A stretch of 64,000 bases of DNA from Sphagnum magellanicum (taxonomy: Eukaryota; Streptophyta; Sphagnopsida; Sphagnales; Sphagnaceae), in NCBI GenBank assembly GCA_021904315.1, contig CM038917.1, positions 3,332,041 to 3,396,040 on the forward strand. The letters are read 5' to 3'. Both the position numbers and the translations under genes were made by a program. The notes beneath the pieces were generated by a model. That model was not told the DNA's origin. It saw nothing but the letters and a program-made list of their open reading frames with translations, and did no database searches. Positions 11,230 through 55,937 of this stretch are shown one piece after another; positions within the stretch are counted from its first letter, which is position 1; each line of letters starts with the position of its first letter.

Positions 11230-11246
11230 TTCTTCGAACCTCTTTT

Positions 11247-13490
11247 CTATGTTTTATAATCAAATTTTCCATGTTGCACTAAGTTACCTATGGAAGTATG
11301 CATACACTCTAGGAACACTTCAGGGTAAACACCCATCCAAATAATTTCGACAACAAAAGGTAAAAATATTAGAACTTCTCTTCTATTTAAATCAGAAAAT
11401 TTTTGGAGGAATTTAGGTTTGAAATTCCCAAAAATCACACGATTATATAGCCAAAGAGAATAAGCTACACCTAAAATCATCCCAAGTGCTGCTAATGTGG
11501 CCACTAGGCTATTTCTTTGGAAAGCTCCTACTAAAATAAGAAATTCCCTAATAAAGCTACTAGTACCAGGTAAACTCATATTGGCTAAAGTAAAAAATAA
11601 GAAAATAGTAGAGAACATTGGCATGGTGCTGACTAGACCTCCATAATATTTAACAAGTCGAGTCTTGTGTCGGTCATATAGAGCACCAACACATAAAAAA
11701 AGGGCTGAAAAAACTAGTCCATGACTTAACATAAGTAAAATACTACCTTCAATTCCCTGTATGTTTAGACTAAACATACCAATAGTCACAAAATTCATAT
11801 GGGCTACTGAGGAGTAGGCAATAATTTTCTTCAAATCAATTTGTCTTATTGTAGTCAAGGAAGTATATATAATAGCAATCACACTTAAAGCATAAACAAA
11901 GGGAGTGAAATAAAGTGTCGCTTCAGGAAACATGGGTATGGAAAATCTTTAAAAACCATAGGTTCCTAATTTTAAAAGAATTCCTGCCAAGATTACAGAT
12001 CCAGCCGTAGGTGCCTCTACATGAGCTTCAGGTAACCAAATATGAAATGGTATCATAGGCACTTTTACAGAAAAGGAAGCAAAAAAAGCAATCCATAACA
12101 AGATTTGGCGCCGTTCACTAAATTCTGTGGTTAATAATATTTGTAAATCAGTGCTTCCTGTTTGAGAAAGAATAAATAAAATAGCTAAGAGCATGAAGAC
12201 AGATCCAAGTAAAGTATATAAGAAGAATTGATATGCTGCTTGTATTTTTCTCTGTCTAGAACCCCATACTCCTATGATAATAGGAGAGTAAGGGATAGGC
12301 CGTCTGCTTTATCTCCCCATGATGAGTAAGTTAAGAAAAGGCTCCTGTAGGTACCCACTCCCTTCTCAGAGAACCGTACGTGATAGTCTCCTATCATACG
12401 GCTCCATCTTGAGATAGCCGACTTGTAGTTTTATTGGGCGAAAAAAAGGATGAAAGACAAATATATAGTTTTAAAATATATATATAGTTTTGTTCTGGTC
12501 CTCTCTTTAATTCCAGCAACTCATCTTACGGCCTCGCTAATTGTTTTCGGAGGAACCGACCTGAGGCCTTCTCTCAAGACCAAGACGGTTATCCCTGTCA
12601 ACTTAAAAGGTAGCTAACAAGTTTACGTCCATCCTCGGGCGTCGAGTACAGTGCTCTTCCCCGCCACCCCTGTAACCGTCATCTGTAATTCGCGCAAGTG
12701 TGTCTGCACTTCTCGGACTTGACGAAATTTTTTTTCTCGCAGCAAAACTTCATTTTCCTCTGCCTAGGAGCACCCTTTTCTGCATGTTCATACAATACTC
12801 AAGTAGGCGAGGTGAAGTTTTACAAGGTACCCACTCAGAATACCCTCCCCAATCCCAAATAAGTCATCCGACGAGTTCGACCAAAATGCTATGCTTACAC
12901 ACAAGACTACCCTTCTTCGAAAGCTTCACAGGGACTACTCAATTTAGATCTGCCCGAAAGGGTTTACTGCACAAGGCTCCTGCAGAGGCGACGCTTCGCA
13001 CCGCGAATATCAGATGCTCAGCTCCACACAACATAGGGATTAAAACGCTTTCAAAGAAAACATAAAATAGTAAGAGATCCAGCATGCAAAACACAACAAT
13101 CATGAAAGATTCACAAATTAAAAATGCTATCATATACTCTCTTTTATAACTCTTGATACTAGACCAACCTACTAAAATGCAAATAGGAATTAAGAATGTG
13201 GTCAAAACCACAAAAAATAAAGAGATACCATCTATACCTATATAAAAATGAATATTTGGATAAGGAAGCCATCGAATGGTTTCCACAAATTGAAATTTGG
13301 CTGTAGAATTATCGAATTGTATCCAAAAAAAGAAAGAATACAGAAAAATAATCAAAGAGGTGCACAAACCAATACCTCGTATCAGTCGTATTCTTGAATC
13401 AGGGATAACGGAAAGAATAATGCTTCCTAACAAAGGACACAAAATAAGACCACTAAGATTAAAATAAAATGAAGCTAAAAATTGTAACAT
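11247..13490 (-). pseudogene. nad4: nad4, NADH dehydrogenase subunit 4, with one in-frame TAA
   Basis: ND4 is an antiporter-like membrane subunit of complex I. Exon 1 (13030-13490, 461 nt) starts MLQFLASFYFNLSGLILCP. Exon 2 (11247-12282) resumes in frame at FIIIGVWGSRQRK and runs to GNLVQHGKFDYKT. Total length is about 498 residues, normal for the family. Codon 265 (11949-11951) is TAA in the context LGTYGF-stop-RFSIPMFPEA, where the family has Leu. This is not explained by U-to-C editing, which would give Gln. Downstream blocks (IDLKKIIAYSSVAHMNFVTI, LVSTMPMFSTIFLFFTLAN) are intact. Introns at 976 and 1399, usual in ferns and seed plants, are absent. Confidence 0.93.
12283..13029 (-). other. 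Group II intron nad4i461
   Basis: 747 nt, starting GTGTGGAGC after coding nt 461. Domain V lies at 12371-12404 (GAGCCGTATGATAGG, short loop, TATCACGTACGGTTC). No maturase frame. A mixed A/T palindrome lies near 12455-12490. Confidence 0.85.
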
Positions 13491-14125
13491 AAATGTTTAC
13501 TCTTTTTCCAATAAATCCCGAAAACGCAGCTCTCTTCGCAGGCCGGAGCAGGTCTATATTTTTTATTGGCTTTCTAGCCATAGCGGCCGTATAAGTAAGT
13601 ATATCACCATGCACTTTTGTACATAATGCCCTTAATAATTGCATAACTTGATGGGCTTTTGTATGCACATACTATGTAATTGCATACTTTGTTTTTTATT
13701 GCTTTGCCTAATGCTTTAGGGCCTGCCTGCTACTATGACCGGCCCCAGTCAAGGCCGAAGAGATAAGAAGAAGTTGATTGGGCAAAAAAAAATTGTCTTT
13801 TTGTTCTATGTTTTTTTTGTTTTTTTTTTCTTCGACCCTTAATCTATCATTCCATCATTCCAACCTTTACTTCCTTCTTTCCCCTTTTGAAATTCCTTAT
13901 AAGCCCAAACCAATATCGTGCTTTATTTGAGGACTCATGTTTTCATGACTCACTGTAGATGGACTGCAAAAGCGTAGCTTGGGCCTTGGGCTCCAAAAAA
14001 AACGATTTTTTTTCGCTTGTTAGGTGGGCGCCCTCTCTTCCAGCAGAGCCCAAAAAGGGGCGTAACACTGGCTTATCATTGCGTCCCTTAGAGTTCTGTG
14101 ATATTATATAAGGAAGTATGGGCCC
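13491..14125. other. Spacer between nad5 and nad4
   Basis: 635 bp with A/T palindromes near 13785-13830 and 13994-14016 and a GC-rich fragment. No gene recognised. Confidence 0.5.
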
Positions 14126-14701
14126 TTAGTTCGTGCTAATGTTTCTTTTGAAATGAATAAATAGAAAACTCACTATGTAAATAAAATACAATCGATTATC
14201 TACCCAAAAAGAAATAAAATCCCACAGACCTATTATGGTAATAAATATGGTTAAGCCAATCAACATCACAAAAGCATAATGATAAACAAAACCACTTTGA
14301 AGTTTATTGATTTGCTTGGCTAATTTTCGAAATGTGTACGAAATCCCATAAGGCCCTAAGATTTCAATAGCACCCTTGTCTAAAACTTTAAATGAGACTT
14401 CATATCCAAAACGCAAAAACGATTTAACTATAAAATCATTAAAAACTTTATCAAAAAACCAGCGCTTGTTTAGAAAGCAATATAGTCGATTACCCAAAGT
14501 ACTAGTTTTTAAAGCGAAAATAAATTGATTTGCTACAAAATTTATATTATACGCCACAAAAGCACCTAGAGTACTAAACAAAATAGGAATTAGTTTGATA
14601 ATTGTTGGAGTAGCAAACTTAGATTCGGCAATAATTTCATTTTTGGGTAGTACGAAGAGGGAATTAGCCCAAAAATTAGTACCTAAACCAATCATCATAT
14701 C

Positions 14702-17382
14702 GGTCCCTAAGCCGTTCTGTTGCTGGAACGGCTTGGCTTCAAAACCGTACGTGAGGCTTCCACCTCATACGGCTCCTCTCAGGATTTTTCCGTCTCCCCG
14801 CTCATTTTCAACATGGCAGTGCTTGTCTAGGAGTTGAAGTTTGTTTTATATAAATACTCAAAGATTCCACTTTGATGTGGTCTACTTCCATGTCTTTGTG
14901 CTTTCTTAATATCTTTAGGCAATGTACTCAAGAGCCTTTTTAGGGGTTTGGCCACCGTATTTAGAGCCTTGGATTTTAGTAGATGGTATTTTCGTCAAAA
15001 GTGCACAGTAAGACAGAGAAGTCGGAACAGAAGAAAAAATATAGATTTTTTTACTGTTGCGCTCTCTTCTCACTTGGCTTGTAGTTTGATTGGGCCCTTA
15101 TCTTGTCCCACCTCAATGTGCTTATGGCTAGCTATCCAACTCAGTTTGACCAGGTAATATTCTTTTTTGACCTTAAAGGCCGTTGTGTAAGAGTCGTACA
15201 AAATCCAGTTATCTTGGTGTGCTTTCCCCCGAAATATCCAGCTTTTATTTTTGGGGAAGTACTTTTGTTTTATTTTATCACGACCCCATGTTGGGTGCCG
15301 TCGGTATACCCATGCTCGGATCTTTTGAAAGATGTCATGGTCTAGTCTTCGAAATACATTGCTGCATTCAGAGTATTTAAAGTAGTTGCCCCATTTTACT
15401 ATTTTGGGTACCAGGATTGCAATGAGTTGATAGGCCGCCTTTCCTTTTGAGAGTTGAATGGCCCGTCGAATTTCTTCAAGAAATCTCCGACGAGACTCAC
15501 GAGACGGAGTTATTAAAGTTTTCACTCTGCCCCATTTCCAGATATGATTGATTGAGGACCCTATAAATTGAAACCCAGATCTAGTGTTGATTATCTGGGT
15601 TTTATCTGGGTGCAATTTCAGTCCCATGCACTTTAACCATTCCTCCAAGAATGTCTGAGCCTGTTCTATGACCTCCCTGGATTGGTGAAGTACAACAAAG
15701 TTGTTGACATATCTAACTAGTATCGGAGTCGGTTTTTTAGGGTGTGCTTTTAATGCCCACTCCCTCAAAGCTGTCTCCATCCCATGGAGAGCCATGTTGG
15801 CTAGCAATGGAAAGAAGATAATGCCACAGGTGCCCATATTTATGATTTCCATGTACTGAGGATTATTTCCCAATTTAGTCATGATGTCGACTTTAAGCCA
15901 GGCTTTTACCTGTTTGGCTAGACTAGGCAGAGTTTTGAGTTTGTTTAAGAGGGCTTCGTGGTTGATGCAATTAAGACATTTGGAAATGTCTACATTCAAA
16001 ACATACTTAGGCTTGGCTCGAATAGCTAAGAATATGGCTTTAATGGCGGCATCTTGGCAGTTCCGTCCAAGTCTAAATCCATAGGAATTGGATTCAAAGT
16101 AGGCTTCCCATTCAGTTTCTAGGGCCAAATTGGCCAAAGCTTGCTTGGCTTTATCTTCAATAACGGGGATACGCCAAAAAAAGGAAGAGGCGCGAAGTGC
16201 AATTCGAAAAAAAAAATCTATATTTTTTTTTGCTTTACGTCTTCTGGGCGCAAAGTGTGCTTGGTTGACTCTATGTTTTCTGGTGCGCGGCGCAAAAAGA
16301 ACGCAGCAAAATCTATATATTTTTTCTGCCTTACGTTTTATGGCTTGTAGTTTTCTTGGTCGCTCTTCCTCTTTTCGGAGCTTTAATATCCTCATTTGAT
16401 GAATGGGCGTAGTCTTCTCATCTAATTGAAGACCTCTTGCCATCTTTCTTTTTCGTGGCCTTAAGGTCACCATCTTCTTGTCAATGCCAGAGTTTTTTTC
16501 TTTTAGGTTTTCTTGTGTAACTTGTCTTACGGCTAAGGGTCTGGTGTATATATTTTGTATAAGTCTAGATTGTAAAGCACGCATCTTGTCCATATTGTTA
16601 AAGCGAGGGGCTTGGTAAATCTTAGTTTGAGGTCTAAAAACAACTGCCTCGACCTTAGGCCGAGAAATTTGTTCCCAAGGTATCGTTTGGGTATCTATGT
16701 AGAACCTACTCATAACTTATTTTCCTTTCCAGTTTTTACTGAGATCCTAAGTCTCCAAGTGGGCATAATAAAAATGCTACGGGGAAAAATCTATTTTGGC
16801 TGGCTGTGCCCCGTGGCCTTAGCTTTTTAAAGAATCCTACTCTCGTGGGGCTTGTAGCTCAGCAGCCCACCTTAAGGGAGCCCTATTGGAGTCTTCCAGT
16901 TTCAAGTGTATAAGATAGTTATAGCGGCCCATAGGCGCAAAATGTACTTTGCGGGGCGGTCCCCTGGACATAGTCCTTTTGGACAGTGGCCGTTTAGTCC
17001 ATGGTCCATTGGATGTTCAGTGCAAGACCAAAATTTTGCACTGCAAGTACCCCTCGTTCCTGCCTTTCGCTCTAGGGTCCGTCCCTCAGTGTGGTTAGTA
17101 CTAGATACTATCGGGCAGCAAAGCTTGCACTAATTTACTTCTGATGGTTCACCAGGGCTTCTTTCCTCTCCCCTTTTTTGTTTGCTTCTAACTCAAAGGC
17201 TGCCAGACCTCCTACAAAGGAAAGAGAGTCGACTAAACATCTCAGCCATTGGCGGGAATTTCGCCCGCATCCAATTTTTAATTGTTGTTCACCTAACACG
17301 AAAAGAAATATATATATTTTTTGTGTTAGGGTTGCAACAGCCGCTTTGTCACAAGAGTGACTTATAGGCTAACAGGTCACAC
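14702..17382 (-). other. Group II intron nad5i1455 with maturase ORF
   Basis: About 2.68 kb, starting GTGTGACC after Lys-485 and ending GGGACC before GATATGATG. Domain V lies at about 14740-14774 (GAGCCGTATGAGGTGG ... CCTCACGTACGGTTTT), followed by a 12-bp stem (AACGGCTT) near 14708-14735. It hosts the 547-codon ORF at 15070-16713. Confidence 0.87.
15070..16713 (-). CDS. Intron-encoded reverse transcriptase/maturase in nad5i1455, catalytically dead
   Basis: A continuous 547-codon frame inside nad5i1455, of the group II intron RT/maturase family that helps splice its host intron in mitochondria. RT blocks are recognisable: about 183-230 (IPVIEDKAKQALANLALE, NSYGFRLGRNCQDA), about 240-262 (VDISKCLNCINHEALLNK), about 293-310 (MGTCGIIFFPLLANMALHG) and about 334-342 (RYVNNFVVL). 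The maturase X/thumb region is at about 400-470. The catalytic YADD is YVNN, the second Asp of motif 1 (usual CFD) is CLN, and the usual TPQGGIISP block is altered and shorter. RT activity should be gone; a splicing role could remain. Residues about 128-178 are encoded by two A/T palindromes plus filler (16,200-16,335) that replace the usual motif-0 approach. No DNA-endonuclease domain is seen. Confidence 0.8.
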   Translation of the reverse strand: MSRFYIDTQTIPWEQISRPKVEAVVFRPQTKIYQAPRFNNMDKMRALQSRLIQNIYTRPLAVRQVTQENLKEKNSGIDKKMVTLRPRKRKMARGLQLDEKTTPIHQMRILKLRKEEERPRKLQAIKRKAEKIYRFCCVLFAPRTRKHRVNQAHFAPRRRKAKKNIDFFFRIALRASSFFWRIPVIEDKAKQALANLALETEWEAYFESNSYGFRLGRNCQDAAIKAIFLAIRAKPKYVLNVDISKCLNCINHEALLNKLKTLPSLAKQVKAWLKVDIMTKLGNNPQYMEIINMGTCGIIFFPLLANMALHGMETALREWALKAHPKKPTPILVRYVNNFVVLHQSREVIEQAQTFLEEWLKCMGLKLHPDKTQIINTRSGFQFIGSSINHIWKWGRVKTLITPSRESRRRFLEEIRRAIQLSKGKAAYQLIAILVPKIVKWGNYFKYSECSNVFRRLDHDIFQKIRAWVYRRHPTWGRDKIKQKYFPKNKSWIFRGKAHQDNWILYDSYTTAFKVKKEYYLVKLSWIASHKHIEVGQDKGPIKLQAK

Positions 17383-18083
17383 TTTGGCCAAGTATCCTGC
17401 AAAAATACTTCCAAAAGCTAAAAAGATTAAAGGAATTGCCATGAGAATGGGCGCATCATGACATTGTAAGATGTCTTGCTTGAATGAATTTGTTGGTGCT
17501 AAAAAGGTTAAAAAAAGTAAACGAAAAGAATGATAAGAAGTAAAGAAGACAGAGACACTTCCCAACCAGAAAGCAAAGTTACCACTAATTGTATATTTAG
17601 TATAAGCGAGCTCTAAAATAACATCTTTAGAATAAAATCCAGTACAAAAAGGGAAACCTATTAAAGATAGGCTGCCTATAAACATCATAGCATAAGTATA
17701 AGGTAACAAAGAAGCAAGCCCTCCCATCTTACGCATATCTTGCTCATCTGACATGGCATGAATCACTGAACCTGCATTCAAAAAGAGTAATGCTTTAAAA
17801 AAGGCATGATTCATTAAATGAAATACGCTAACAGAATAGTTGAAATGCCGCAAGCAAAGATCATATAACCTAATTGACTACAAGTTGAATAGGCTATGAC
17901 CCTCTTTAAATCGTTCTGTAATATTCCAGTAGTTGCCGCAAAAAATGACGTCATAGCTCCTACGAAAGTAATAACAATCAAAGCATTGGGTGGATATTCA
18001 AATAAAGGAGAGCACCTTGCTATCATAAAAACGCCTGCTGTTACCATAGTAGCTGCATGAATTAGAGCAGATACTAGAATGGG

Positions 18084-18941
18084 CTACTCTTCAAGCTTTT
18101 ACGCTTCTACAAGGCCAAAAAATAAAGATTTTGGAGTATTGGGTAATGAGCTGGTGAGCTTAGCAAGACTAGGGACTAGATCTTCCACTTATGAAATAAA
18201 GACTCTCCCAAAAATCTGTAAGATGGCCACTGTGCTCTTAACAACTGAGATGTTCTTTATCTTTTATGCATAAATGCATTTGATGCCATCTCAGCCCCAT
18301 TCTAACGCTTTTTGAAAATAGATTTTGCAAAGCAAAAGAAATTTTTTTGAGCTTTTTCAAAGTAAATCCTGGTAGATCGATCCGGCGTGCAGTGCTTTGG
18401 TAATGATGATGATAAGACTGGGCTCGAGCTGATAATTTGGCCTTGTTAGAATGGAACACCAGGTTGCGCTGGAAAAATATATATATATATTTTTTCCGCT
18501 CCCTCCAAGTGAAGCTTACAAGCAAAATGATGAGTATTTGATTTGATATAAGGTTCCTCTACATGCCCGAAACTTGTACAGATCCTTCCATTTTCTAAGA
18601 CTTGCACATCTAGACTATATAATCTAAAAAAAAATGACCGAACCTTCATGACAAAATAGTGCTTCGTACCTCAGGTAAATCCGACCGGCTTCTCTTTCCA
18701 AGGATAAGATTTATTTCAAATAAGAGGTTTCACGTACAGTCTCTGAGGATCCTATAGAGCAGAGCTCCCTTAGCCTTTTTTGCTAGGTAGACTTGGCCCT
18801 CTCTTATAGGTTTCCTGCTGATTGGTCAAAATGAGATATTTTTCCAATAGGGACTCTCACTCGGTCGACGATTCCAGCATACAGTGAGATTGTTGGAATG
18901 TACCTAATGGCACATGAGAGCCCTCAAATATTTATTCAAAA
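18084..18941 (-). other. Group I intron nad5i753
   Basis: 858 nt between Gly-251 (GGT) and Pro-252 (CCC). The upstream exon ends in T and the intron ends in G, as group I introns require. A Q-like element AATCAGCAGGAAACC lies at about 18,809-18,824, and an R/P7-like CCTCAGAGACTGTACGTG at 18731-18748. Position 753 is the classic group I site in liverwort and moss nad5. No homing endonuclease frame was recognised; an AT palindrome lies at 18471-18497. Confidence 0.82.
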
Positions 18942-19462
18942 ACCCTCCATTGCATCAGGTAACCAAGTATGTAATCCTATTTGTGCAGATTTTCCAACAG
19001 CACCAATGAAAAGTAAAATACAAATAATAGTCATGGCATGAAATTTCATATTGCAAAAATTAAATAATGATAAGGTTCAGAATAGGCACTAACACAAGCA
19101 AAAAGAGTCGAAAAGTCTACTGTTTGAAAAATAATAAAACGACCCATAATCCCAAGAGCTAATCCAAAATCACCTACTCGATTGACAAGCATAGCTTTTA
19201 TAGCTGCTTTATTGGCCTGAAGCCGTGTAAACCAAAAATTAATTAACAAATATGAAGCAAGACCTACTCCTTCCCATCCTAAAAATAATTGAATAGAGTT
19301 ATCTCCGGTAACCAGCATTAACATAGAAAAAGTAAAAATGGATAAATAACACATAAATCGAGGGCTATGTGGATCTTCGAACATATATGAAATAGAATAA
19401 ATATGAACTAAGATACTTACAAATGTAACCACAATTAACATAATTACAGTCAGACTATCAAA

Positions 19463-20337
19463 CACAAAGTCAAAAGTTTTACTTCACTAGGGCCTTTATT
19501 TTGCAAATTAAGCAGAAATTTTTTTTCATACCGCAATGCGGCCATTCACCCAAGTGAAATAATAAAGTGCTCTCCAAACCGTGCAAGATGGTTACCCATC
19601 ACACGGCTCACTAACTTCAGATTGTGGTTAAGGCTTAAAGTAAGCACCGTGTGTCCGAGCAGGCCGCAGCAAAAAATTGATTTTTTTTCTGCTCCATCTT
19701 ATTTAAGGCTACGATGCCGCTTACCTTTGCCACTCAAGCGTACGACATCTGCCGACTTAGGCCCCTTCCCTTCTGCCGATCTCAGTATTTTCCCTCTGGC
19801 AAGAAAATAAATCGCAGTAAAATAATTTGAAAATATTTGAGGCTGCGCCCTTTTAAGTAAGCGAGTACTACGAGCCCTCTGCCCCACGCACCAGTGGGCA
19901 GATGCGTGGTTCACTGGTTCCACCAAATACTTTATTGATGTCGAGACATAGGTGCGCTTGAAGTGGTGTGTTGTCCTTATCGAACTCAGGCCCCCCATTT
20001 GTCCGGGCATATGCGCCCTTTTGCTGCCCATATGCGGGAGGGAGCACCGCGTTATCTAGCCTTTACATGGCATGGGACCTTGCCTGATGCACCAAGTTTG
20101 GGATACCTCCTCCACCTTACGTTTGTGACCTATGGTCTCACCTGTGTCTCGAAGACACAGTCAAGGCACGGCCAAGGATATTTTTGGCTACGTTTGGTAT
20201 GCCTCTTTCTTGACATGCTATGGTGCTCTAAGGGAGTTCGTTTCATAGAGTGAGTCGAGTCCGTTTCGCCGCAGAGCAACTGCAGCGTCCAGATAATCTA
20301 TCTATCCAGCAATTCATCCGGTGACTTCACGGTCGCC
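19463..20337 (-). other. Group II intron nad5i230
   Basis: About 875 nt between the WGFF and FDSLTV codons. Domain V is at about 19575-19609 (GAGCCGTGTGATGGG ... CATCTTGCACGGTTT). The exact 5' cut is uncertain by one base because the junction is a T run followed by GGCGACC instead of the usual GTGCGACC. A palindrome framed by GCAGC lies at 19666-19693. Confidence 0.8.
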
Positions 20338-22847: not shown

Positions 22848-25300
22848 ACCTTAAATTCAAGTAAGTGATGTCGGTTTTTTTTTTTACATTAAACAAATGG
22901 TATGTTTGTCAGGTTTTTATTTCCTAAATAATAAAGCACAGAGCACAAATAATGTAGGTCGACCTCGCATCGTGCTACACGACAATTCTGTTAGGACCTT
23001 ATTTCTAGCAGTTGCCTCCCGTACTGGCAGCTTTGACAAAAAGATTCCTTTGGAAATCAATTCGTCTTTAATTCATCAAACTAGGGTTTTAAGAATCGTA
23101 TGATAAGACATTGGTTCAAATAGCTAGCCAAGAGGAAGCTTAGTTAGTTTATAGACCTACAGGTGATGTGTACTGTGTAAGAGAAAAAGAGTTATTCTTC
23201 GAACCTCATATCTTCAGTCATATAAATTGGCCCTTCTCGCTTTTTCAAACCTTCGGCTAAAAGACATAGGGCTCAGCCCCAAACCCCCTATTTTAGCCTA
23301 TTTCCGGGGAGCATTTTTACGTTTTCTGATGATGAAATGGAAGTCTGCGTGCTTTGCTGCGCCCTTCGGCCTGCCGCCCTCATCAATGTCAAGAGGCCGA
23401 AGGGCGCAGCAGCCTTCATAGACGTAACTGGATTTTTTTATTATTATATTTCTTTTTAATAGGAAATTTTATCGTCAGAAAATAGCATATCGTCATATTG
23501 ACAAATATTTCCAGTCGGGCTAAATAACTTGACCAAACCCTTAAACACTATAGTCAGTTTTCGTCATTATGTTGATAAAACGTACTATTTCTCTCTACGA
23601 TAGTCTAAAGACTCCGTAGTATGAAGCTCCAAAGCTTATAAGACATAGCATAATCTATCTGATTTCATTAGCCTTTTTATTTCAAAAACAAAGTAATTAA
23701 ACTACTTACTGCTATTGCAAACAAACTTTTGCGCCAGCAGGCAATTATTTACCTAACCCTTTTCATGCAAAAGATTTGGACCTCCGTTCTTTTGGCGCAA
23801 GCGTTGTGTAGGTTTATAAATTTATTTATTTGTAGCACATTTTCGCATTACGAAAGTCGCTATACGGAAATGCACAAACTGAGCATGTGCGTAACCAAAA
23901 ATTTTAAGAAATATTGGTTGCGCCCTTTCTGAGTTTTTCCTGCTCCTATCAATAATAAATCCTTTGAACTCCATCTTCAACTTCCTGATCATTATAAGAA
24001 TGCCTTAAGAGTTCGTCTCAAATCTGTTGAATTATTTTATACTAGTAATCTTACCCATTCAGTACCAACTCTTACTTTTCAAAAAAAAAGGCTATGTCTT
24101 TCAAGATTTTAGCCAATACCGTTTTTATCAAAAACTGCTTTGCCCGGCTATGCTCTGATTTCCGAGTCCACAAAACTAGGTCTAAATCCTACTCTTTAGA
24201 CCCCTCTGAGCCTATAAGCATTTTTATACTCAATCTCATCTCAAAAAGATTTCGTAAATTCTTTTTCTTTACATAAAAAATCTATAAGGTCTATTTGGAT
24301 CTTCCACAGATTAAGGATCCCCGTTACCATTTCTATATAACTAAAAATTATATTTGGATAGATTTTTTTGGTGTTATTTTATTCAACAAGCGCACTAAAA
24401 AAAAGTCTTCGGCCTCAATAAGTATAAAAAGTGGGTTGAATTTCTTCATTATCTGCCAAGGTTGAAACTACCTGTGCGGGCCGAACTATTTAACCTTTAC
24501 TTTGCTTTTACTCACCCCGTCTTTTTGTACAGAAGCCCTATCCTCATTACCAAATACTATGATATGTCCTTGCTACTTCTTTTTATCCCCGTTCTTCTCA
24601 AAATAAACCTTACTCAGTGGGTGTCTTTTTCTTGTCTATGGCCAATAATGTGTCACGTTCAAAATTATTATGACATTTTACAATTTTGGGGCTTTAGCCC
24701 AAAACAAAAGCTACCTGCCCTTTTCATAACAAAAAAAAGGGTAGCCTAACCTTTGTATCATACATAAGCCACGCCACCACCCACCTGAGCTTTAAGCTTT
24801 TGCCAATAACAGGGCCTGCGTTATTTGTAAATACTGCAAGCCCTCTCCCTTAAAACTACTATATCTCCCTTCTTAACCTAATAATGCCGCAAATAGCCTT
24901 TTTTTATTGCTCAAATAACAGATACGATAAAAGGGTGCTATATTGATATATATGATGATTTATAGGATTTCTTTTTCAGGTCTTCAATCAACAAGCTTGA
25001 AGTCCAACCAATCATGGATTTTGCATGAGTGTACTTCTTTTAGCCTAGTTTGTTTTATTTTATAGCAGAGCAGTCTTTGCTCCATATTACTTTATATAAC
25101 GGTTATATGTCATAAAGTAGACAATTTCATCATCACCACTATGAAATGGCCATGTTTAACTTGTCTGATTTTTTGGCAATGACAAGAGCAGAGGCAAAGC
25201 TGGCCTGCTAAAAGGCCAGCTCATCTTTATAATCAAGTATCTAGCTTCTTTTAAGTTTTTACGAGGTTATTTTCTAAGTGTACTCCCCTATTTATTAAGG
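22848..25300. other. Unassigned mitochondrial-like sequence up to the transposon junction
   Basis: No identified gene. GC motifs such as GAAGGGCGCAGCAGCC near 23,400 are like those elsewhere in the mitochondrial block. On the plus strand a broken reading frame can be followed at about 23,935-24,090 (FPAPINNKSFELHLQLPDHY, then KNALRVRLKSVELFYTSNL) and 24,270-24,450 (VYLDLPQIKDPRYHFYIT, then KNYIWIDFFGVILFNK). It looks like a decayed protein gene, which I do not recognise. Confidence 0.45.
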
Positions 25301-27497
25301 GTCTAGTTTTGATCTCTTCTCATTAGGAACATGCACGTATGCAATGCAACCAAACACTCTGAGGTGTGAAACATCGGGTTTCTTGCCTGTGAATTTTTCT
25401 TCAGGTGTCATGCCATGAATCGCCGCTGTGGGTGTTCGATTCATGATGTAGACTGCAGTTGCTACCGCTTCTGCCCAAAAGTAATTTGGCAAATTCTTCT
25501 CATTCAACATGGCATGTGCTATTTCTGCAATGTGCCTGTTTTTCCTTTCAGCAACTCCATTCTGTTGTGGGGAATAACTACATGAGTATTTCCTTTGAAT
25601 CCCATGCTCCTTCAAGTACTCATTGAATTCATTTGAAAAATACTCTCCCCCTCCATCGGACCTTAGGCATTTGATGCTCACACCCTTCTCCTTCTCCACC
25701 ATTGCTTTGAAATGCAAAAAATGTTGAAACACTTCACCTTTGTGTTTCATGAAGTAGACCCACACCTTCCTTGTGTGGTCATTAATGAAACTCACGTAGT
25801 ACTTGCATCCTCCAATGCATTCTGTCTTCGTGGTCCACACATCCGAGTGGATCATTTCCAAAGGTTTGGAACTTACATGAGTTGTTTGAGTTGGGAATGG
25901 ATGCCTAGCTTGCTTCCCCAATTGGCATGCTTCACAAACCTTTGACATCACCTCTTCTGCTCCAAATTTGGGAAGACCTCCAACAAGATTTTGTTTCTCC
26001 ATGAGCTTAAGACGTTGGAGACTAACATGGCCAACCCGCTTGTGCCAAATTCCAATGTCTCCAACTCCTTTTCCATGTGTGAATAACATGGAATTCACCT
26101 CAGGCATGTTCACATCCAAGGTGAACATTCGTCCATTCCTTTCTCCTTTTGTAATCAATTTGCCTTGGTTCTTCATGTCTTCCACAAAACATCCATTTGG
26201 GTTAAATGTCACCTGTAAACCTTGTTCCACCATCAGGCCTACAGAGACCAAATTTTTTATTATGGTTGGAACATGAAGTACATCTTTCAGGTACTTTGTT
26301 TGCCCATCTTGCATGGACAATGGCACCTTGCCAATTTGTGTGATGGGATGTGTAGTGTCATCACCAGTTTCCACAAACCCTGGTGTCTTCAAATCCTGGT
26401 GTCTTCAAATCCTTTGCGTTGCTAAACCATTCTCCATGGCTAGTCATGTGGTTTGAAGCTCCAGAATCCACATACCAAACATTGTTGTCTGATACACCTC
26501 CTATCATTGAATTTGCCATGTGCTGCATCACAAATAGTTGTTCATCACCTTCACCTTGATTGCTAGTTGATGCATAATTCCCTTGTTACAGCTTTCCACT
26601 TCGTGCATCATGCTCCCTTTGATAACAGTTCTTGGCCATGTGCCCAGGTTTCCCGCAGTAGTAGCAGTTTGAATCATTATTTGGTTGTTGACCTCGATGG
26701 CTTCCACCACGACCTCCACGACTTCCTCGACTTCCTCTTCCTCCAAAGTTTCCTCGTCCACCTCCATGAGCTTGACCTTCATGTTGATAATGTCCACCAT
26801 GCGAGCTTCCGTGTCGACCTCGAAATGAGGTTTTACCACCTCTACCTCTACCTCTATTGGTATTTGAGTAGAAAGCACTTTCTTGTGATCCTCCATTGGA
26901 TGAAGTACCAACAATTCTCATCTCTTCACTTATAAATAGTGTTATTAAATCTTGGAAGTTGGGAAATGTTTCTCGAACTGCAATTGAAGTACGGAACTGG
27001 CTATAGTCTTTTCCAAGTCCATTTAAGGTCATGGCCACTAAATCTTCATCATCTACAGGGGCTCCTATAGATGCAAGAGCATCTGCAAGGTTTTTCACCT
27101 TTGTAGAATAGTCATTGATGTTCATTTTGTTTTTCTGGAGATTATGCAACTCTTGCTTGAACTGCATTTTGCGGGCTTGTGTATTGGTGCTATACATCTT
27201 CACCAATGTATCCCAAGCTTGCTTGGGTGATTTTGCATCTTGAATATGCACAATCATGGAATCGGACACACTCACAGAAAGCCAATACAAGACTTTCCTT
27301 TCTTTTTCATGCCAAGTTTTATTGGCTTGAATTTGCTGTTGTGTGGGGTTTTCTGGGAGAGGAGGTTCTGTCTCATCACCAGTTATGAATTCCCAGTAGC
27401 CTTTCCCCATCAAGAAATTCATAATCCTAAATTTCCACAATTGGAAATTGTTCTTGTCTAGTTTCTCAATTGCAATTTGAGAAAGGTCGTCCGCCAT
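25301..27497 (-). mobile_element. Ty1/copia retroelement fragment: gag, protease, integrase
   Basis: Reads on the minus strand from 27497. Gag (27497-26586) starts MADDLSQIAIEKLDKNNFQLW (first 20 shared with plant copia gags) and contains the UBN2-type domain, an RG-rich stretch and a zinc knuckle CYYCGKPGHMAKNC. An in-frame TAA (Gln CAA in the family) follows SGKL. The frame then continues to protease (VWYVDSGASNHM). A 16-bp tandem duplication shifts the frame, and integrase follows (26392-25301) with GAG-pre-integrase HxxxH/CxxC (WHKRVGHV, CEACQLGK) and DDE residues (HSDVW, RSDGGGEY, GVAERKNR). The element stops abruptly at NEKRSKLDP, where mitochondrial-type sequence begins. No LTR is present on this side. 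Confidence 0.9.
26381..26412. repeat. 16-bp exact tandem duplication in copia protease region
   Basis: TGGTGTCTTCAAATCC occurs twice in a row. As 16 is not a multiple of three, it breaks the copia polyprotein frame; removing one copy restores SNAKDLKTPGFVETG. Confidence 0.9.
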
Positions 27498-27559
27498 TTC
27501 TCAAGGCACCACTCTATGTCTTCTTGGGGTTTCACAATGATTTTAATTCCTTCCTTGGG

Positions 27560-27630
27560 TTTCTAGGGTTAGGGTTAGGGTTTTCCTTCCTTAGGTTTCT
27601 AGGATTACGGTTAGGGTTAGGGCTGAACCA
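27560..27630. repeat. Short interstitial telomere-like repeats
   Basis: Two clusters of GGGTTA units (CTAGGGTTAGGGTTAGGG, then GGTTAGGGTTAGGGC) lie just upstream of the copia gag start. They are TTAGGG-spaced and short, so they may be ordinary leader sequence. Confidence 0.5.
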
Positions 27631-28149
27631 TATGGACCTTGCATATGTATGTATGTCTTGAGTATTATACGAAATTCTATACTATACATATGTTTTACGT
27701 ATAGGTACGTATCTCGTATAATATTTCGTATGGTATTAAGTACATGATTACATACCACACTTTTGTACGAAGGTCTTGATAATGTATTTGCGCTTCCTAA
27801 TCTCCAAACTCCTTCCTTCAAGTTCTCCCAAGATATATTTGCTCCACTTCAAAACTTTGCTTTGATGTCTTCTCAAAACAACTTTTGTCACAGTAACTTT
27901 GCAAAGCTACTCCACACACATATGACCTTGAATCGTTCTGAAATTCTGGTGAAACATGAACAACTATGTCTACTAATTTCTCTCAAAATTTCAGCTCATT
28001 TAACTTCATAAAATGGGAGATCTTGCTACTTCTTTGAAGTCACCTCAAACTGGGACCTGAACACAAAATGACTTACAACTTGCTCTCAGCAACTCCAAAA
28101 TCCTTGATATTTTGGGAGACACATAAAATATATGTCTTCTATATCTGTT

Positions 28150-29424
28150 CAACTATAAGAGCAATCATTGCTATGGCAGCAGCAAAAGGATGGTCTTTAC
28201 ATCAAATGGATGTAAAGAATGCCTTTCTTCATGGAGATTTACAGGAAGAAGTGTACATGGAACAACCACCAGGTTATGTGGACCAAACACATCCTAACTT
28301 GGTTTGTAGGTTGAAGAAAGCTCTGTATGGCTTGAAGCAAGCTCCTAGAGCTTGGTCAGACAAGATAGGTCAGTATCTTGTCACAAGTGGATTTCAAACA
28401 TCCAATGCAGATTTTTCACTATATGTGAAAAAGACAGATCATGGGATTGTAGTCATAGTCATCTATGTTGATGGCTTGATTGTCACAGGAGATAGTGATG
28501 CAGACATCTCTGATTTGAAAAAGCTTTTGAAGCAAAAGTTTGAGATGAAGGATTTGGGAGAGTTGCGTTATATCCTCGGCATTGAGGTAATCAAGTCCCC
28601 TTAAGGGATATGGTTACTACAAAGGCAATATGCCTTGAACAAATTGGCCGAATATGGGATGACGGGTTGCAAACCCATTTCAATTCCATTGGAACAAAAT
28701 GTGAAGTTAAGTGCAGATGAAGGAGACCTCGTGGAGGATATCACTATGTATAGACGCATAGTGGGGAGTTTGATTTACATGACCATCACAAGGCCAGATT
28801 TGAGTTATGCAGTTGGAGTGGTGAGTCAATTCATGTAAACACCACGAAAGCCACATTTGGATGCAGTGAGGCGATACTGAGGTACATAAAACATACCTTG
28901 CAATGTGGAATTTTTTATGAAGCCAAGAGCCAGTTACAAGTACATGGATACACGGATGCTGATTGGGCTGGCAATGTTTCAGATAGAAGATCAACCAGTG
29001 GTTTCATGTTTTCTTTTGGAAGTGGTGCTGTTAGTTGGAGTAGTAAGAAACAACCAACAGTTGCATTATCAAGCACGGAAGCAAAATACAGAGGTGCAAC
29101 AATTGCTGCATGTGAAGTAGTTTGGTTACAAAAACTACTCTCAGATTTGGGACAATCGGTGGATGCTCCTGTTGTCATTTATTGTGATAACATCAATAGC
29201 ATACTACTTGCTAACAACCCAGTCTATCATGCTAGGACAAAGCACATTGAGGTGCACTACCATTTTATTAGAGAAAAAGTTCTAGCAAAAGAAATTGACC
29301 TTATTCATGTTAGTACTGATGATCAGGTTGCTAACATTTTCACAAAGGCTTTAGGTACAGACAAGCTAAAAAAGTTTCGAAAAATGCTTGGTGTACTAGA
29401 AGTGGATTTGAGCTTGAGGGGGAG
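28150..29424 (+). mobile_element. Ty1/copia fragment: reverse transcriptase and RNase H
   Basis: Plus-strand copia pol from RAIIAMAAAKGWSLHQMDVK through ALYGLKQAPRAW, then RNase H (HGYTDADWAGNVSDRRSTSG, ALSSTEAKYRGAT) to KFRKMLGVLEVDLSLRG. Damage: in-frame TAA at 28600-28602 and 28837-28839 (both Gln CAA in the family) and a frameshift near 28875 (DAVRRILRYI region). The RT active site YVDD is YVDG. The 5' end is cut at the start of RT. It lies opposite in strand to the gag-integrase fragment 0.65 kb away, and between them they make one near-complete set of copia domains. Confidence 0.9.
29413..29424 (+). promoter_or_regulatory. Polypurine tract of the copia fragment
   Basis: TGAGGGGGAG directly before the LTR start TGTTGAGAATTC; this is where plus-strand DNA synthesis is primed in LTR retroelements. 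Confidence 0.75.
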
Positions 29425-29708
29425 TGTTGAGAATTCAAGCTCAACTAGTTAGGTTCCATTAGTTACTGGAGTAGGATTACTTTCTTTACTTATTTTAGTT
29501 TGGTTATTTGTGGTTTGGTCTTGTAGTTAAATACCTTGGTGTTGATGGTTTGTTTCTCTTTTCTTCATTACACAAGTTTGTGTATTTCTTGTGACAAGAA
29601 CCTTGGAGAGTTCTTGATGTTGTGTTTTGTGTTGTGAGCATTATGTTGTAGTTTCCTTTCAATAAAGATTTATGTTTGCACTTGAGTAGATCTCCTATTT
29701 GTTAACAC
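29425..29708 (+). repeat. 3' LTR of the copia fragment
   Basis: Starts TGTTGA after the polypurine tract and ends TTAACA, an imperfect terminal inverted pair of TG...CA type. It contains AATAAA near 29661. No matching 5' LTR is found within the window. Confidence 0.65.
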
Positions 29709-29809
29709 AATTTGCCCAAAACAATGAAACAGTGGACACCTTAGGATTTGTGATTTATTGTACTTGTAAGGGTTTACTTTTCCAACTTCTATATGCAAAT
29801 GAACCATCC

Positions 29810-30170
29810 TATCTTATCCTCAGATATTGACACAAATATCAACTTCGATTTCTTACTTCATTGTAATAATAAGAATTGGCCCTTTCCAACATGTAACAAC
29901 ACCAAGTGTGGTCCACAATAGTTATAGATGAATATGGTCACATAATTCCCAACAAGATGCATCCAAGGAAAAAATACTTTCAACATTATCGATTGCATAG
30001 AAAACTTGACAAACACTAACCATGATTGGCAGTTGCAACATAGGCAATAATTAATAGCCTAAGAGCACAGGTGGGGGGAGAATTGCAATTTGACTGACTC
30101 TTTGATTTTGATAGGGCAATTACATGATATACGAGCAATGTGTGTACATTCAATTAATATTCACAAATTT
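29810..30170. repeat. Direct repeat A, copy 1
   Basis: About 350 bp that recurs at 31504-31853 with roughly 90% or better identity (for example CTTTCCAACATGTAACAACA and GATTGGCAGTTGCAACATAG are shared). The two copies flank the GIY-YIG ORF in the same orientation. Confidence 0.85.
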
Positions 30171-30227
30171 TAGAATATCAGATTGGGCAAGATTAGAGAC
30201 CACATATGCACCAACAGGAGAATTAAG

Positions 30228-30940
30228 CTAAAAAAAAACAAAAGAAACATAAAGGTGAAGGACCCCACTATGATTTGGTTGCACATCATCAGAAGGAGAA
30301 CCAATCTCCTCAGAAATTGGCAAAGAAGGAGGAGGTAAACTTGTAGCAACATTAGGAAGAACATTGACAAGAACCCAAATTTTGTTATTAGGATGAGCAA
30401 ATGAAGGCTTGATGCCCTTTCTCCACAACATTGCAAAAGCTTTATGTACCCTAGGAAAACGTCTATTGTTTGACTTACCTTCTAGGTTATAACCTCTTGG
30501 AAAGAAAGTGTGTAAAATATTCATCCATTTTCTTTCCAATTGAGAGATAACAAACTTAAACAAGTTTAGAGCAAAACAGCCTTCAGAATCAAAGAAATTC
30601 CCATCTACTTTTTCAATAGGAAAAACTCTGAAGGAATGGAAACCCTTTTTGGCAATGGCAACATATAATGGCTTAAAATCAAAAGACAAACTAGCAAGCT
30701 CAGACAGTCTTTTAGCTTCTCTTATATAATCTTGGAATCTCTCAAAAGCAAACTTACATGTTTGACCAACATATAACATTTTACTATTATTGACATTGTA
30801 AATAACATAAATTACCCCCTTATCTAAAAATGGACAGAAGCTACTTGAAGAATTAAGGTGTTTTTGCCTAAGCCTTCTAAGTATGTTGAGAGACTTAATG
30901 TTGAAGACAAAAAAATGAATATAGCAATTACCTTTTTAAC
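30228..30940 (-). CDS. GIY-YIG endonuclease-like protein, probably from a retroelement
   Basis: Open frame of about 235 codons after a stop near 30,945. The catalytic layout is complete: KGVIYVIYNVNNSK (GIY), MLYVGQT (YIG), the conserved Arg in FERFQDYI, the metal-binding Glu in QLERKWMN and the Asn in PRGYNLE. GIY-YIG nucleases nick DNA; in Penelope-like elements such a domain follows the RT. A preceding segment (FVFNIKSLNILRRLRQKHLN) has no clear match. No RT is visible on either side. ATG at 30779 lies inside the domain, so the true start must be upstream, perhaps through splicing. The C-terminal 60 residues are Pro/Ser-rich and unlike the family. Organellar MSH1 and plant ET factors also carry GIY-YIG folds but do not resemble this sequence elsewhere. 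Confidence 0.65.
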
Positions 30941-31345
30941 TGGGCCCCATTTTATGCTTCCATTTCCAAATTTTTGGAGTTTGTTTAAGTTACACCGAGC
31001 CAAAAAAAAAAATCTATCAAATTAAGCGGACCGAATAGCATAATGGAAATTTGCAAGCTCTCAATTTAAGGGACAATTTCCAGCTCAAGCAAAGGTCCCC
31101 ACTCTTGATAAGGACTCAAGATGCCCCCTTTTGTGCGAGAGGGCTACTCCTAAGCAATAGGGAAGCCTAAAAAGACATTACTTGTTACGAGTCAAAGATC
31201 ACAGTGCCGACACTTGCAAAGAGTCACCTGCAACAAAGCCAAAGAATGCCTTATGGCAAACTGGGACTCTGCTCTTGACCTAAAAAAAGAACAAGAGACA
31301 AAAGAACAAGACAAGAAGAAATAAAAAAACAGAATAAGCACACAA

Positions 31346-31498
31346 ACAAGGAAGTACATGAATCTGCTACCAACCATGAGTTAAAAGGGAGATCTAGAAC
31401 AAAACAAAACAAAACAAACAATTTTTGGTAGAATGCTAACAAACATTACTGCAACTCAATACGGACTGGCAAGGTTCATAGGACTAGTCACAAATTTC
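31346..31498. repeat. Direct repeat B, copy 1
   Basis: About 150 bp starting ACAAGGAAGTACATGAATCT, repeated at 31956-32104 with a shorter AAAACA run in the second copy. It lies just before repeat A copy 2. Confidence 0.85.
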
Positions 31499-31503
31499 TA
31501 TTT

Positions 31504-31853
31504 TATCCTCATATATTGAACAAATATCAACTTCCATTTCTTACTTCATTGCAATAATAAAAACTGGCCCTTTCCAACATGTAACAACATCAAGTGTGGT
31601 TCACAATAATTATAGATGAATATGGTCAAATAATTCCTAATAGGAAGCATCCAAGGAAAAAAGACTTTCAACATTATTGATTGCATAGAAAACTTGACAA
31701 GTACTAACCATGATTGGCAGTTGCAACATAGGCAATAATCATTAGCCCAAGAGCATAGGTGGGGGGCGAATTGCAGTTTGATTAACTCTTTGATTTTGAT
31801 AGGGCAATTACATGATAAGAGCAATGTGTGTACATTCAATCAATATTCACAAA
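31504..31853. repeat. Direct repeat A, copy 2
   Basis: Second copy of the repeat at 29810-30170, lying immediately after repeat B copy 1. The order A-ORF-B-A-B suggests a tandem duplication whose second unit lost the 1.1-kb centre with the nuclease ORF. Confidence 0.85.
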
Positions 31854-31955
31854 ACTAAAGGCAACCATTATTAAATCAACAAAAAACGAACACATTCCCA
31901 CATCGACAAAGCTCCCAACCTTATGGCTAAGAGGCTTTTGATTTTAAGGGGATAT

Positions 31956-32104
31956 GAACAAGGAAGTACATGAATCTGCTACCAACCATGAATTAAAAGG
32001 GAGATCTACAACAAAACAAAGCAAACAATTTCTGGTAGAACATTCACAAACATTACTACAACTCAATACGGACTTGCAAGGTTTATAAGACCAATCACAA
32101 ATTT
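31956..32104. repeat. Direct repeat B, copy 2
   Basis: Second copy of the repeat at 31346-31498, about 100 bp after repeat A copy 2. Confidence 0.85.
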
Positions 32105-32178
32105 CACAGATATTGTGCATGTAATAATGTTGTTACTTTTAGTATCTTGACATCAAAATGGACCTCACAAACAATATT

Positions 32179-32553
32179 TCAAAATGGGGGGGGGGGGTAC
32201 ATTACATTTGGTGTGGGGGTCCATTTGCTAGGTGCCTTATTATGTTCCTTCTTAACTGAAGATGCAACTGGCAGCTCAAAACCTTCTAACTCCTCTCCTT
32301 TTGAGTTGTAGTTGCTGCTATTAGAAGCGTCACGTTCATTAGATGTTGCTAATGCCAACAACCCCTCTTCTTCCACCACATGACGATGTGGTTTTCCAAC
32401 ATTCATAGTGCTCCTCCTATTGCTTTGGTGTCCAAGTGTTCTCCCATCCACCACATTTTGGGTGGACTTCTTATTTGTCTTCTTCCCCCCTCGCATGGTT
32501 GTTGAGTTCATGAAGTGATGACTGCCAAGTGACCCAATGTTTCCAAAACACAA
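32179..32553 (-). CDS. Hypothetical Ser/Asn-rich ORF, unrecognised
   Basis: 124 codons with a basic N-terminal half (GGKKTNKKSTQNVVDGRT) and an acidic middle (SKGEELEGFELP). No motif recognised. The C terminus is read from a poly-G tract (32185-32196), so its end is unreliable. It could be an exon of a transposon-encoded protein or chance. Confidence 0.2.
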   Translation of the reverse strand: MCFGNIGSLGSHHFMNSTTMRGGKKTNKKSTQNVVDGRTLGHQSNRRSTMNVGKPHRHVVEEEGLLALATSNERDASNSSNYNSKGEELEGFELPVASSVKKEHNKAPSKWTPTPNVMYPPPPF

Positions 32554-32599
32554 TGAAGGTGCAATTAGTTTGGACTAAGACTGTCTCAATAAACATATG

Positions 32600-34980
32600 A
32601 CCATTAACTAGCATACAAACCTAATTTTAAGCTATGTATGTAATAAAAGATCACCAGAAACTCTATTTCATGGCAACGCCAAAGACATCGACTTCAAACC
32701 CTAAACCCTAACCCCATGAAGAATTTAAAATAGTTTGGAATTTGGAAAGTAGCTACAACCTAACACTAGAACAAAGATTATTGAAGAATGTTCAAACTAT
32801 TTGGCAAGTGTATACACAAAACTCATGCACATAACCAAACTTCCAACTCTTTCATACAATGCAAGTAATGGAGATTGCATGATCCATTATAGAACTATGT
32901 ATGGGCCTTTCCATTTATGCATGTGAAGACAAGTTTTAAAAACTCACAATTCTTGGGCATTTCCTTCAACTTTTGCAAATTGTTGTTTGAATTAAGTAAC
33001 ACGCATGTTATGTGCTAAAACGTAGGGATTGGGTGTTGTTTCTATGGGATCAGCATCCATTGCTGCTTCATCGTGACCCACTGTACCATCATCATCACTA
33101 ATGACTGCATTTTCGTCATGCTCCATCTGTACCTTACTCAAGCAACTAGCCTTCTGTTGGTCTTGCCTTAAAAATGTTAATTGTTATGGGATGCCACAAG
33201 CCTCCCCAATGTTTCTACTATCGATGTGTAACATCACTTTCCAAGTCTAGAAAAGTTGGCTTTTAGGGAAGGCCTAACAACCTTTGCACTTTGAACTTGA
33301 ACATGTTGAGCCCACAAACATTTAGTAGCTGCAAACTCCCTAGTATAGTACAAACCCTCATTTACTCTGAGGTACCTTTTAGATAGTTGCAACCAATTTT
33401 ATTTCTTTATAAGAGTGTGAATAGGAGCCTAACAAGGAGCATATTTTGCACATTAGGCTGATACTTCTAATTTTTCAGTCTGCACATCTATTTGGTCTAA
33501 GTAAAGTTCATGCAGTTTGCAGCAAAATTTAGCACATGTATTAGTATATGAAATGTGTGAGTCTAGGTGTCGCAACCCTACTTTGAAAAGAGTGTGAAGA
33601 TGAAACCCACATTCTCGAAATTGGGACTTGGGAGTCGTTCGGGACTCCCAAAACTTCAGAGTTCGATTGTAGGGGTCAAAACACCTCACATTGAGGCGTT
33701 CTTTATATCATTGGAAAGCTATCGAAGTATAAGTGTCGAAAATGGGCTCGCATGGGCCATTTGGACATCTGCAGCACCCATTATGGCAAAAAGAAGGGCC
33801 GAGAATCAAATTGGCAATTTGACTCTCAACCACTAAAAGTCAGGAATTGACCCGGCCCCGGTCCATTCTCAAAGAGAGCTACAAGTTTGATTGAGACCTC
33901 ATCCTAATTGGAGGTCTGAGCAAAGAGTTATGACCTCACAAAATCCCAGGAGTCCAAACTAGGACAATTTCATAACTCCTTGGGAGTCCCGGGACAAAAA
34001 ACCATTCGGATGTAGGTGCCATGGAGAAACGCAAAGAATATTACATGGGAAAAGGTGGTGACTTCCCGTAAATCTGGGCCATGGTGAGTATGGGGGAAGG
34101 TGGTGGCTTCCCCCGAATTCAAGCCATGGTGAATCTTGTGAGTCCAAAGTTGCCCGTGGCTTGTCCTAGCATTAAAGGTGCTCTAGAAAGTGAACTAACC
34201 AACTTGTTGGTTGGTTTGATGTAGGTTCAAGTAAGTAACTAAAGCTTGTCACTCTTCTTAGTCCCATCTCGGAACTTCAACACGCCCCTCTACCCCTTCT
34301 AGTGCTAAGAGTTGGGAGCGTGCCTCGAGTTCCTCACAATTCTGCTATTTCAGTAACTTAGACCCATCTTGGGTCTAATTAGGAACTTGGGAGTGCGTCA
34401 CTAGGGTTAACAATGACTTCATGATGTTTAAACATAATGCTAACATTTGTTGTGCATTGGAGGTATGATCTCCAATGTGCAGATTTGTCTAGTTCAAAAA
34501 ACATAACTCAAAAATCACTTCAATGTTAAAAATCAATACTTGGCAAATAAATTGGAGGTGGCATATGCATTGGCTATTTGTCAAAAGAAAAAAGGGTGTA
34601 TGAACATGGTTGGACATTAAACAATGGTCAAGTTATAAAATCACAATTTTTTTTATTACCATTAGTTAGCCAAAACAAGCCAAAATAATACAATGCACAT
34701 GTTGTAATTTGTAAGATATTTTGTCCACCTCATACTTAAATGACTAAATTACATTTTAACATCACTTGGGCTCATTTGCATAATTGTACTACAAGCCTCA
34801 TACTACTTCTAGGATCCAAACATGCAATTGACATTAGATCTTTGCCTTCACATGCCCTTGGTGCACTGCCAAGTGATTGGATAAAGGTATTTGACACTTA
34901 CATATGCTGATTGAAAGTTCACTTGAAGACACCCTATGCTTCTGAAGTCCTAACCTAATTCAATTTTTTTTACCCAATCA
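32600..34980. other. Intergenic, no gene recognised
   Basis: AT-rich with a GC-richer patch at 33,560-34,330 that lacks a convincing frame and resembles an old transposon remnant (GGAAAGCTATCGAAG and similar repeat-like phrases). A telomere-like CCCTAAACCCTAACCCC occurs at about 32,698-32,714. Confidence 0.4.
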
Positions 34981-48350: not shown

Positions 48351-48934
48351 GTCTACTAAACACATTAAACTAGTGGTACATTTATGATAAGATTTGTATT
48401 TTGATAGTAATATTTCTATGTCGAAAACTTCATAAATTCTACACATACAAAATTCAAATTTTTAAATGAATTTATTAATTGACAAACACTTGCCAAATCC
48501 ATTTGGGGACTATGAAAATCCACATCATAATGACAAGTGGAGAGTAAATGATATCAGTTGGCTTTGAACCTGTAGTATTTTTTTCTCTAACTACATTACA
48601 TAGAGAAATAAAATAAGAAAAAAAGAAGGATTAGGGAAGGGGGGGGGGGGTTTGCGATCATATTTTCGGGAAACATTGTGATTTATATATATTACATACC
48701 ACTAGGTAACCATGTCTTTTTTCTATTTTTTTTCTTTTTTAATTTCATGGTTTCAAAACTTTTGGATTGCTTTTATGTCGAATTTATAAGAAAACCGAAA
48801 TTTTACAACTTTATATTTTTTTTTCTATAGAAACAATGTAAAATTTGGCCAAGAAAAAATTCACTAGTAGGTAAACTAAATAAATAAACAAATATATATA
48901 GTCAAATTTGGTTTATGTCATCCTGCTGTAGCCA

Positions 48935-55925: not shown

Positions 55926-55937
55926 GCTCTGATACCA
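55926..55937 (-). promoter_or_regulatory. Primer binding site, initiator tRNA-Met
   Basis: TGGTATCAGAGC on the minus strand is complementary to the 3' end of plant initiator tRNA-Met and directly abuts the 5' LTR. Confidence 0.9.

Follow-up and report, generated by a model that had tools for sequence, protein, structure and literature searches.

A GIY-YIG open reading frame between direct repeats in the moss Sphagnum magellanicum is very probably a decayed fragment of a multi-copy Penelope-like element

The window, i.e. the whole 64-kb stretch of Sphagnum magellanicum DNA analysed here, contains an open reading frame with a GIY-YIG domain between direct repeats. With high confidence, this frame is identified as the decayed remnant, shortened by an internal deletion, of a multi-copy Penelope-like element (PLE) of the permuted Naiad/Chlamys kind, in which a GIY-YIG endonuclease, a CxC linker and a reverse transcriptase (RT) follow in that order, and the flanking repeats as an unrelated local tandem duplication. 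The family appears to be new and its kind, judged by its features, is the already known one of PLEs with an N-terminal endonuclease. A preliminary description of this DNA was right to suspect a plant selfish element of Penelope-like type, as the sequence is multi-copy and a copy elsewhere in the genome (L014) holds a GIY-YIG...CxC...RT frame; its suggestion of a new kind of element falls to this domain architecture, which is that of known N-terminal-endonuclease PLEs.

The window copy

The frame occupies 30228-30935 on the minus strand and was defined by ORF calling, Pfam and NCBIfam searches and a 7-row alignment; it is open throughout its 235 codons from stop to stop, and its first ATG would give a product of 183 aa. 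It matches Pfam PF01541 (GIY-YIG) with E 0.0018 and 19 bits, under the gathering score of 22.6, and NCBIfam TIGR01453 (group I intron endonuclease) with E 2.4e-6 and 27.7 bits, under the cut-off of 56. As previously described, the expected residues are present (IY..YVG, R, the E in QLERKW and the N in GYN), presumably those usually counted as catalytic in GIY-YIG domains, and in the 7-row alignment all are invariant except the N, which is T in L021 and lies outside the part covered in L011. No CCHH motif was seen by eye in the endonuclease in the same alignment. The GIY-YIG domain can be taken from these matches and residues to be weak but real. Structure prediction from the single sequence of the ORF gave a pLDDT of 39 and was not used.

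When the 439-Mb assembly (31 contigs) was searched with the ORF DNA, 71 candidates came up and 40 matches were scored, one of them the window copy itself; of the 39 remaining places, 20 were compared, with three more added later. When window positions 28000-34000 were aligned to those 20 loci by blastn, the matches covered, whole or in part, a fragment at 30165-31354 on the minus strand, with its 5' side near 31354 and its 3' side near 30165. The main matches are 82-92% identical and four loci match as far as 31351-31356. Several of the ORF matches start at one query position (447). The family is multi-copy, and the window ORF is one decayed copy of it.

The fragment is interrupted by a deletion junction at 30251-30253 (minus strand). 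Each of the 12 loci with matches on either side of 30251 has extra sequence there, 0.87-0.95 kb in 11 of them and 0.73 kb in L026, and the deletion is therefore private to the window copy among the loci compared. The piece beyond the junction, 30165-30253 on the minus strand, belongs to the coding part upstream of the RT; the RT and the true 3' end are missing. A tblastn search of the whole 64-kb window with the family RT found no RT domain, its sole match being the fragment itself, which bears out the earlier observation that no RT is present. The RT is absent because of the private internal deletion together with the loss of the 3' end; longer copies encode one, so the lack is decay of a single copy and the idea of a non-autonomous element loses its support.

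The private differences of the window copy fall 7, 9 and 4 at codon positions 1, 2 and 3, without codon-position bias, and from these 20 differences it would seem that chance, rather than selection, has kept the frame open. The copy differs by 8-14% from 14 other copies, two of which (L012 and L016) go back to a single insertion by duplication. Summed over pairs of those 14, the differences amount to 1568, 1633 and 2067 at codon positions 1, 2 and 3, a slight surplus at the third position, as would fit a family once under some constraint. Judged by its sequence, the window copy is dead: it has neither RT nor 3' end, bears no sign of selection and would be unable to move itself.

Direct repeats and surroundings

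Repeat A occurs at 29809-30167 and 31498-31853, 91.4% identical over 359 columns, in agreement with the approximately 350-bp direct repeats noted before, while repeat B, absent from that description, occurs at 31345-31498 (the end of the first unit, with ~10 bp ambiguous with the element edge) and 31957-32105, 88% identical over 154 columns. All four copies are given on the plus strand, as is a 103-bp spacer at 31854-31956, and self-comparison of the window places the matches far beyond chance (BLAST E 2e-142 and 5e-49). The order is A1-ORF-B1-A2-103 bp-B2, and A, the spacer and B form a 608-bp unit at 31498-32105.

Elsewhere in the genome the full unit is matched once, at C19:577101-577711, contiguously and with 87% identity; the remaining matches comprise parts of the window itself and four short stretches, and since the search skips very common words, 'low-copy' for A and B is no proof of rarity. 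The C19 place (L032) aligns to window 29708-30167, 31498-33565 and 34401-34883, and has A-103 bp-B once, with no element. Homology to this paralogue thus spans 29708-33565 on the plus strand, the duplication and the element excepted; approximately 0.8 kb at 33566-34400 is missing from it, by insertion here or loss there. Among the 20 other element loci, matches to short parts of B and to the stretch 32055-33567 occur in L026 only.

The direct repeats are best explained by tandem duplication at a low-copy locus, because the unit is single and without element on C19 and A is absent from the other element loci (0/20 by blastn). In this light the ORF and the ~360-bp repeats are two unrelated things, and the element fragment occupies the place of the 103 bp in the first A-103-B unit, the spacer being retained in the second unit and in the C19 paralogue. 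The fragment would have entered the first unit with loss of the 103 bp, either as a retrotransposed copy that then lost its 3' end or as DNA filling a break.

The preliminary description had read the A copies as the pseudo-LTRs of a non-autonomous, RT-less GIY-YIG element, a reading that suits the long direct repeats around the ORF and the missing family RT in the window. It is very unlikely to be correct, given that A is unmatched at the other element loci and stands with its spacer and B on C19 without an element, and that other copies have an RT and different, true tandem ends. As for the genome search for A together with the ORF that had been proposed, the ORF proved multi-copy and A was not found at the 20 other loci compared. 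Similarly, the alternative raised at that time, a single-copy exon beside an unrelated dispersed repeat, holds for the unrelated nature of A, although A is not dispersed and, within the reach of the search, is low-copy, and fails for the exon, the ORF being multi-copy.

Mitochondrial nad-like genes were recognised by eye at 8757-19611 and nearby, with group II introns, tRNAs and a maturase-like frame at 15070-16716; either a nuclear contig has taken up a large piece of mitochondrial DNA here, or the assembly has joined the two. At 25295-29452, minus-strand frames for Copia-type gag and integrase lie beside plus-strand frames for RT and RNase H, by eye one rearranged element or two elements, and the C19 homology starts just past this stretch, at 29708. 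Direct repeats 96% identical (48932-49725 and 55935-56731) surround gypsy-type frames, assigned by eye to the minus strand, in an LTR element that looks young, and a short tandem array at 59056-59441 has repeat copies 94-96% alike.

Coding capacity of the family

The preliminary description had advised looking for full-length relatives with an RT, and the longest copy read, L014, does encode one. It has a single frame of 951 codons with GIY-YIG at the N-terminus, a linker with CAC (CxC) and the RT at the C-terminus, and was recovered again when the genome was searched with protein. Because the remaining long frames are truncated or broken, the full order in one unbroken frame is seen in L014 alone; further long copies likewise have GIY-YIG upstream of the RT and on its strand. 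The CxC was found in eight of ten translated loci (L009, L010, L011, L014, L017, L018, L021 and L027); it is lost in L026 and missing from the printed frames of L025. The three loci fetched among the ORF matches that start at query position 447 (L029, L030 and L031, on C2, C12 and C1) hold rearranged element pieces, with 3'-end pieces beside an internal part, in a larger shared unit.

The RT carries the motifs SFDFSTLYT (A), GIPMGTNCAVYLANFYLFTYE (B), RFVDDLF (C), FLDL and DIFDKR, which were recognised by eye and are presumably PLE-type RT motifs. The long stretch between motifs A and B would fit the insertion-in-fingers domain. Pfam and PDB searches with the RT part left the RT unrecognised, and Pfam on the whole 951-residue L014 protein gave no match at E <= 1, GIY-YIG included; the GIY-YIG part alone reached E 0.0013, under the cut-off. 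Compared with a provisional metazoan Naiad-type RT sequence, the family RT is 33% identical over 217 aa (E 1e-29), and this provisional sequence itself matches Pfam RVT_1 with E 2.4e-5, under the gathering score. As bait in genome contigs, the provisional RT brought up two relatives (L072 and L073) among 30 pattern matches; their contigs are titled marine symbiont MAGs and are probably host DNA. The moss RT matches the PLE-like fragment L072 at 26% over 126 aa (E 1e-6) and L073 at E 0.003. Because Pfam and PDB are blind to this RT, its identification is built on the motifs, the weak L072 match and the comparison with the provisional Naiad-type sequence. Family searches for the element also covered PDB and PHROGs; plasmids searched with the RT gave a single chance match (E 4), and viral contigs searched with the GIY-YIG part, the RT part, the RT alignment and the provisional Naiad-type RT gave no relative.

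These results bear on two other origins for the window ORF. A canonical PLE with C-terminal GIY-YIG, such as Dryad, could be 5'-truncated to the endonuclease alone, in keeping with a review in which the land-plant PLEs listed are conifer Dryads and EN(-) PLEs (PMC9033089). This is highly improbable when GIY-YIG precedes the RT, within one frame in L014 and on a shared strand in further long copies, and when a hammerhead was found at E <= 1 in none of five loci. A host gene (e.g. of the plant EFFECTOR OF TRANSCRIPTION kind) or a GIY-YIG homing endonuclease that stands alone, of organellar or viral origin, would account for TIGR01453 as the best curated family and sit well with the mitochondrial-looking genes elsewhere in the window. 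There is scarcely any likelihood of this either, since the ORF is part of a repeat whose copies are dispersed and often 5'-truncated, its GIY-YIG frame continues into an RT in L014, the searches of viral contigs gave no relative and the window copy's private differences lack codon-position bias. A decayed permuted PLE is consequently the preferred origin.

Probable mode of retrotransposition, target sites and known relatives

Copies of the permuted family compared with one another have a common sharp 3' end, which lies past the 3' limit of the window copy, and 5' starts that vary. A genome protein search with a 900-residue query scored the best 51 of 1066 candidates, giving 58 stretches, some of them pieces of one copy; 34 of the 58 reach residue 889 or later, six start at residue 1, and stretches 97-98% identical to the L014 protein are present. 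Exact direct repeats of 12-20 nt, i.e. target-site duplications, were found at both ends in five of ten copies (L010, L015, L018, L026 and L027), that of L026 lying 17 nt ahead of its assigned 5' start. Terminal direct repeats of 9 and 8 nt occur in L009 and L014, L017 and L019 have only 8-9-nt matches ~420-530 nt upstream of the assigned start (in L019 by an upstream fragment), and L021 has no target-site duplication within the 900 nt searched. Near-identical head-to-tail junctions, ATATT followed by TTTTCCAGTCA, are present in L017, L019, L021 and L055, with L019 slightly different ahead of the junction, and these partial tandems are the family's real pseudo-LTRs.

The 3' end, truncations, duplications and tandems can be regarded as the signature of target-primed reverse transcription, combined with tandems of the PLE type. 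A single protein could perform both steps, its GIY-YIG domain nicking a T-rich target and its RT copying the element RNA from the nicked end. Such target-primed copying would produce a fixed 3' end, frequent 5' truncation, target-site duplications of 12-20 nt and head-to-tail partial tandems. A purified Anolis PLE cleaves AT-rich DNA and begins reverse transcription within its own RNA (PMC11167929).

Target sites were examined with a 3'-end probe, for which the best 40 of 580 candidates in the genome were scored. Of these 40 places, 39 were fetched (the 40th being the probe's own) and L055, a tandem junction, was dropped, leaving 38. With the T directly after GATAT taken as the element's own last base, T occupies flank positions 2, 3, 4 and 5 in 25, 24, 23 and 20 of the 38, position 1 in 10, and positions further out (7 to 39 in an earlier numbering) in 8 to 18. 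No microsatellite is common to the 38 flanks, L058 alone beginning in a TTC run, and T-rich target sites are what seems to remain of a site preference.

Two other preferences were considered and rejected. Targeting of intron 3' ends (3' splice sites) was raised by CAG within the first 25 nt in seven of the first ten copies, vs 0-5 of 10 in control windows; in 38 further ends CAG occurs in 17, vs 10-21 in outer control windows. The mean best acceptor score of the 38 ends, under a model with generic acceptor values, is marginally the highest of all windows (3.63 vs 2.08-3.49 in controls), with scores >= 5 in 13 of 38 vs 6-12, an excess that is weak because a T-rich start alone lifts the acceptor score. 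The flanks of L009, L010, L014 and L015 contain, by eye, host-like frames on the element's strand (PRA1-like, psq/CENPB-like, coiled-coil and zinc-finger), and sense-strand insertions in introns may be common. As for a subtelomeric preference, L024, L020 and L028 lie 1.7 kb, 15 kb and 0.2 Mb from contig ends, and L024's contig end has no telomere repeat. L020 and L028 (C6 and C4) have 4.6 kb and 2.1 kb in common at 97% identity, most of it flank, and L023 and L024 also share flank, so that the clustering near contig ends is largely due to segmental duplication.

Naiad/Chlamys PLEs have an N-terminal GIY-YIG, a CxC linker and a PLE/telomerase-type RT with an insertion in the fingers, lack a hammerhead and show a microsatellite insertion bias that is not a strict requirement and was not seen in the 38 moss flanks. 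The Chlamys endonuclease has no CCHH motif, and its hosts are green algae, spike mosses and slime molds. By these features, Chlamys resembles the moss family in having GIY-YIG at the N-terminus, a CxC linker and the RT at the C-terminus, in its pseudo-LTR tandems, lack of hammerhead and CCHH, and presence in the green lineage, and differs in its microsatellite or rDNA targets, vs T-rich sites here, and in host, here a moss. Naiad, of invertebrates, shares the domain order and the RT similarity to the provisional sequence given above, but has a CCHH zinc motif unseen in the moss endonuclease, and the moss host is a plant. Dryad and other Penelope/Poseidon PLEs likewise combine GIY-YIG with a PLE-type RT, 5' truncation and tandem copies, in the opposite domain order. 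The permuted clade was reportedly described by Craig et al. in 2021. Group I intron GIY-YIG homing endonucleases (TIGR01453) have a similar catalytic domain, whereas the moss one is part of a retrotransposon and not free-standing. Anolis Poseidon has a hammerhead motif (PMC11167929), unlike the moss loci searched, and a 2025 report places Chlamys PLEs in the brown alga Ectocarpus (PMC12477816). Meanwhile, no report of a bryophyte PLE appeared among the matches listed in the literature searched on Penelope in mosses and bryophytes, which is no proof of absence in print.

It is conceivable, at somewhat below an even chance, that a lineage of permuted endonuclease-bearing PLEs has been amplified in a bryophyte to probably hundreds of copies, partly recently, and primes reverse transcription where the target is T-rich, perhaps through short base-pairing between the nicked, A-rich strand and the U-run that would follow the 3' end in tandem transcripts. 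The 580 first-look 3'-end candidates (40 scored), the 97-98% identical stretches and the T-rich flanks point in this direction, and the priming step is a supposition added to them.

The data place an abundant permuted PLE in a moss, a group for which the literature searched holds no PLE report among the matches listed. Furthermore, such elements are easily mislabelled as a 'GIY-YIG gene' or an 'unknown repeat', because the domain models used miss their RT, and an unrelated local duplication is able to imitate pseudo-LTRs. If the amplification proposed here is true, the moss family would be an amplified endonuclease-bearing land-plant PLE that is not owed to transfer of the conifer kind.
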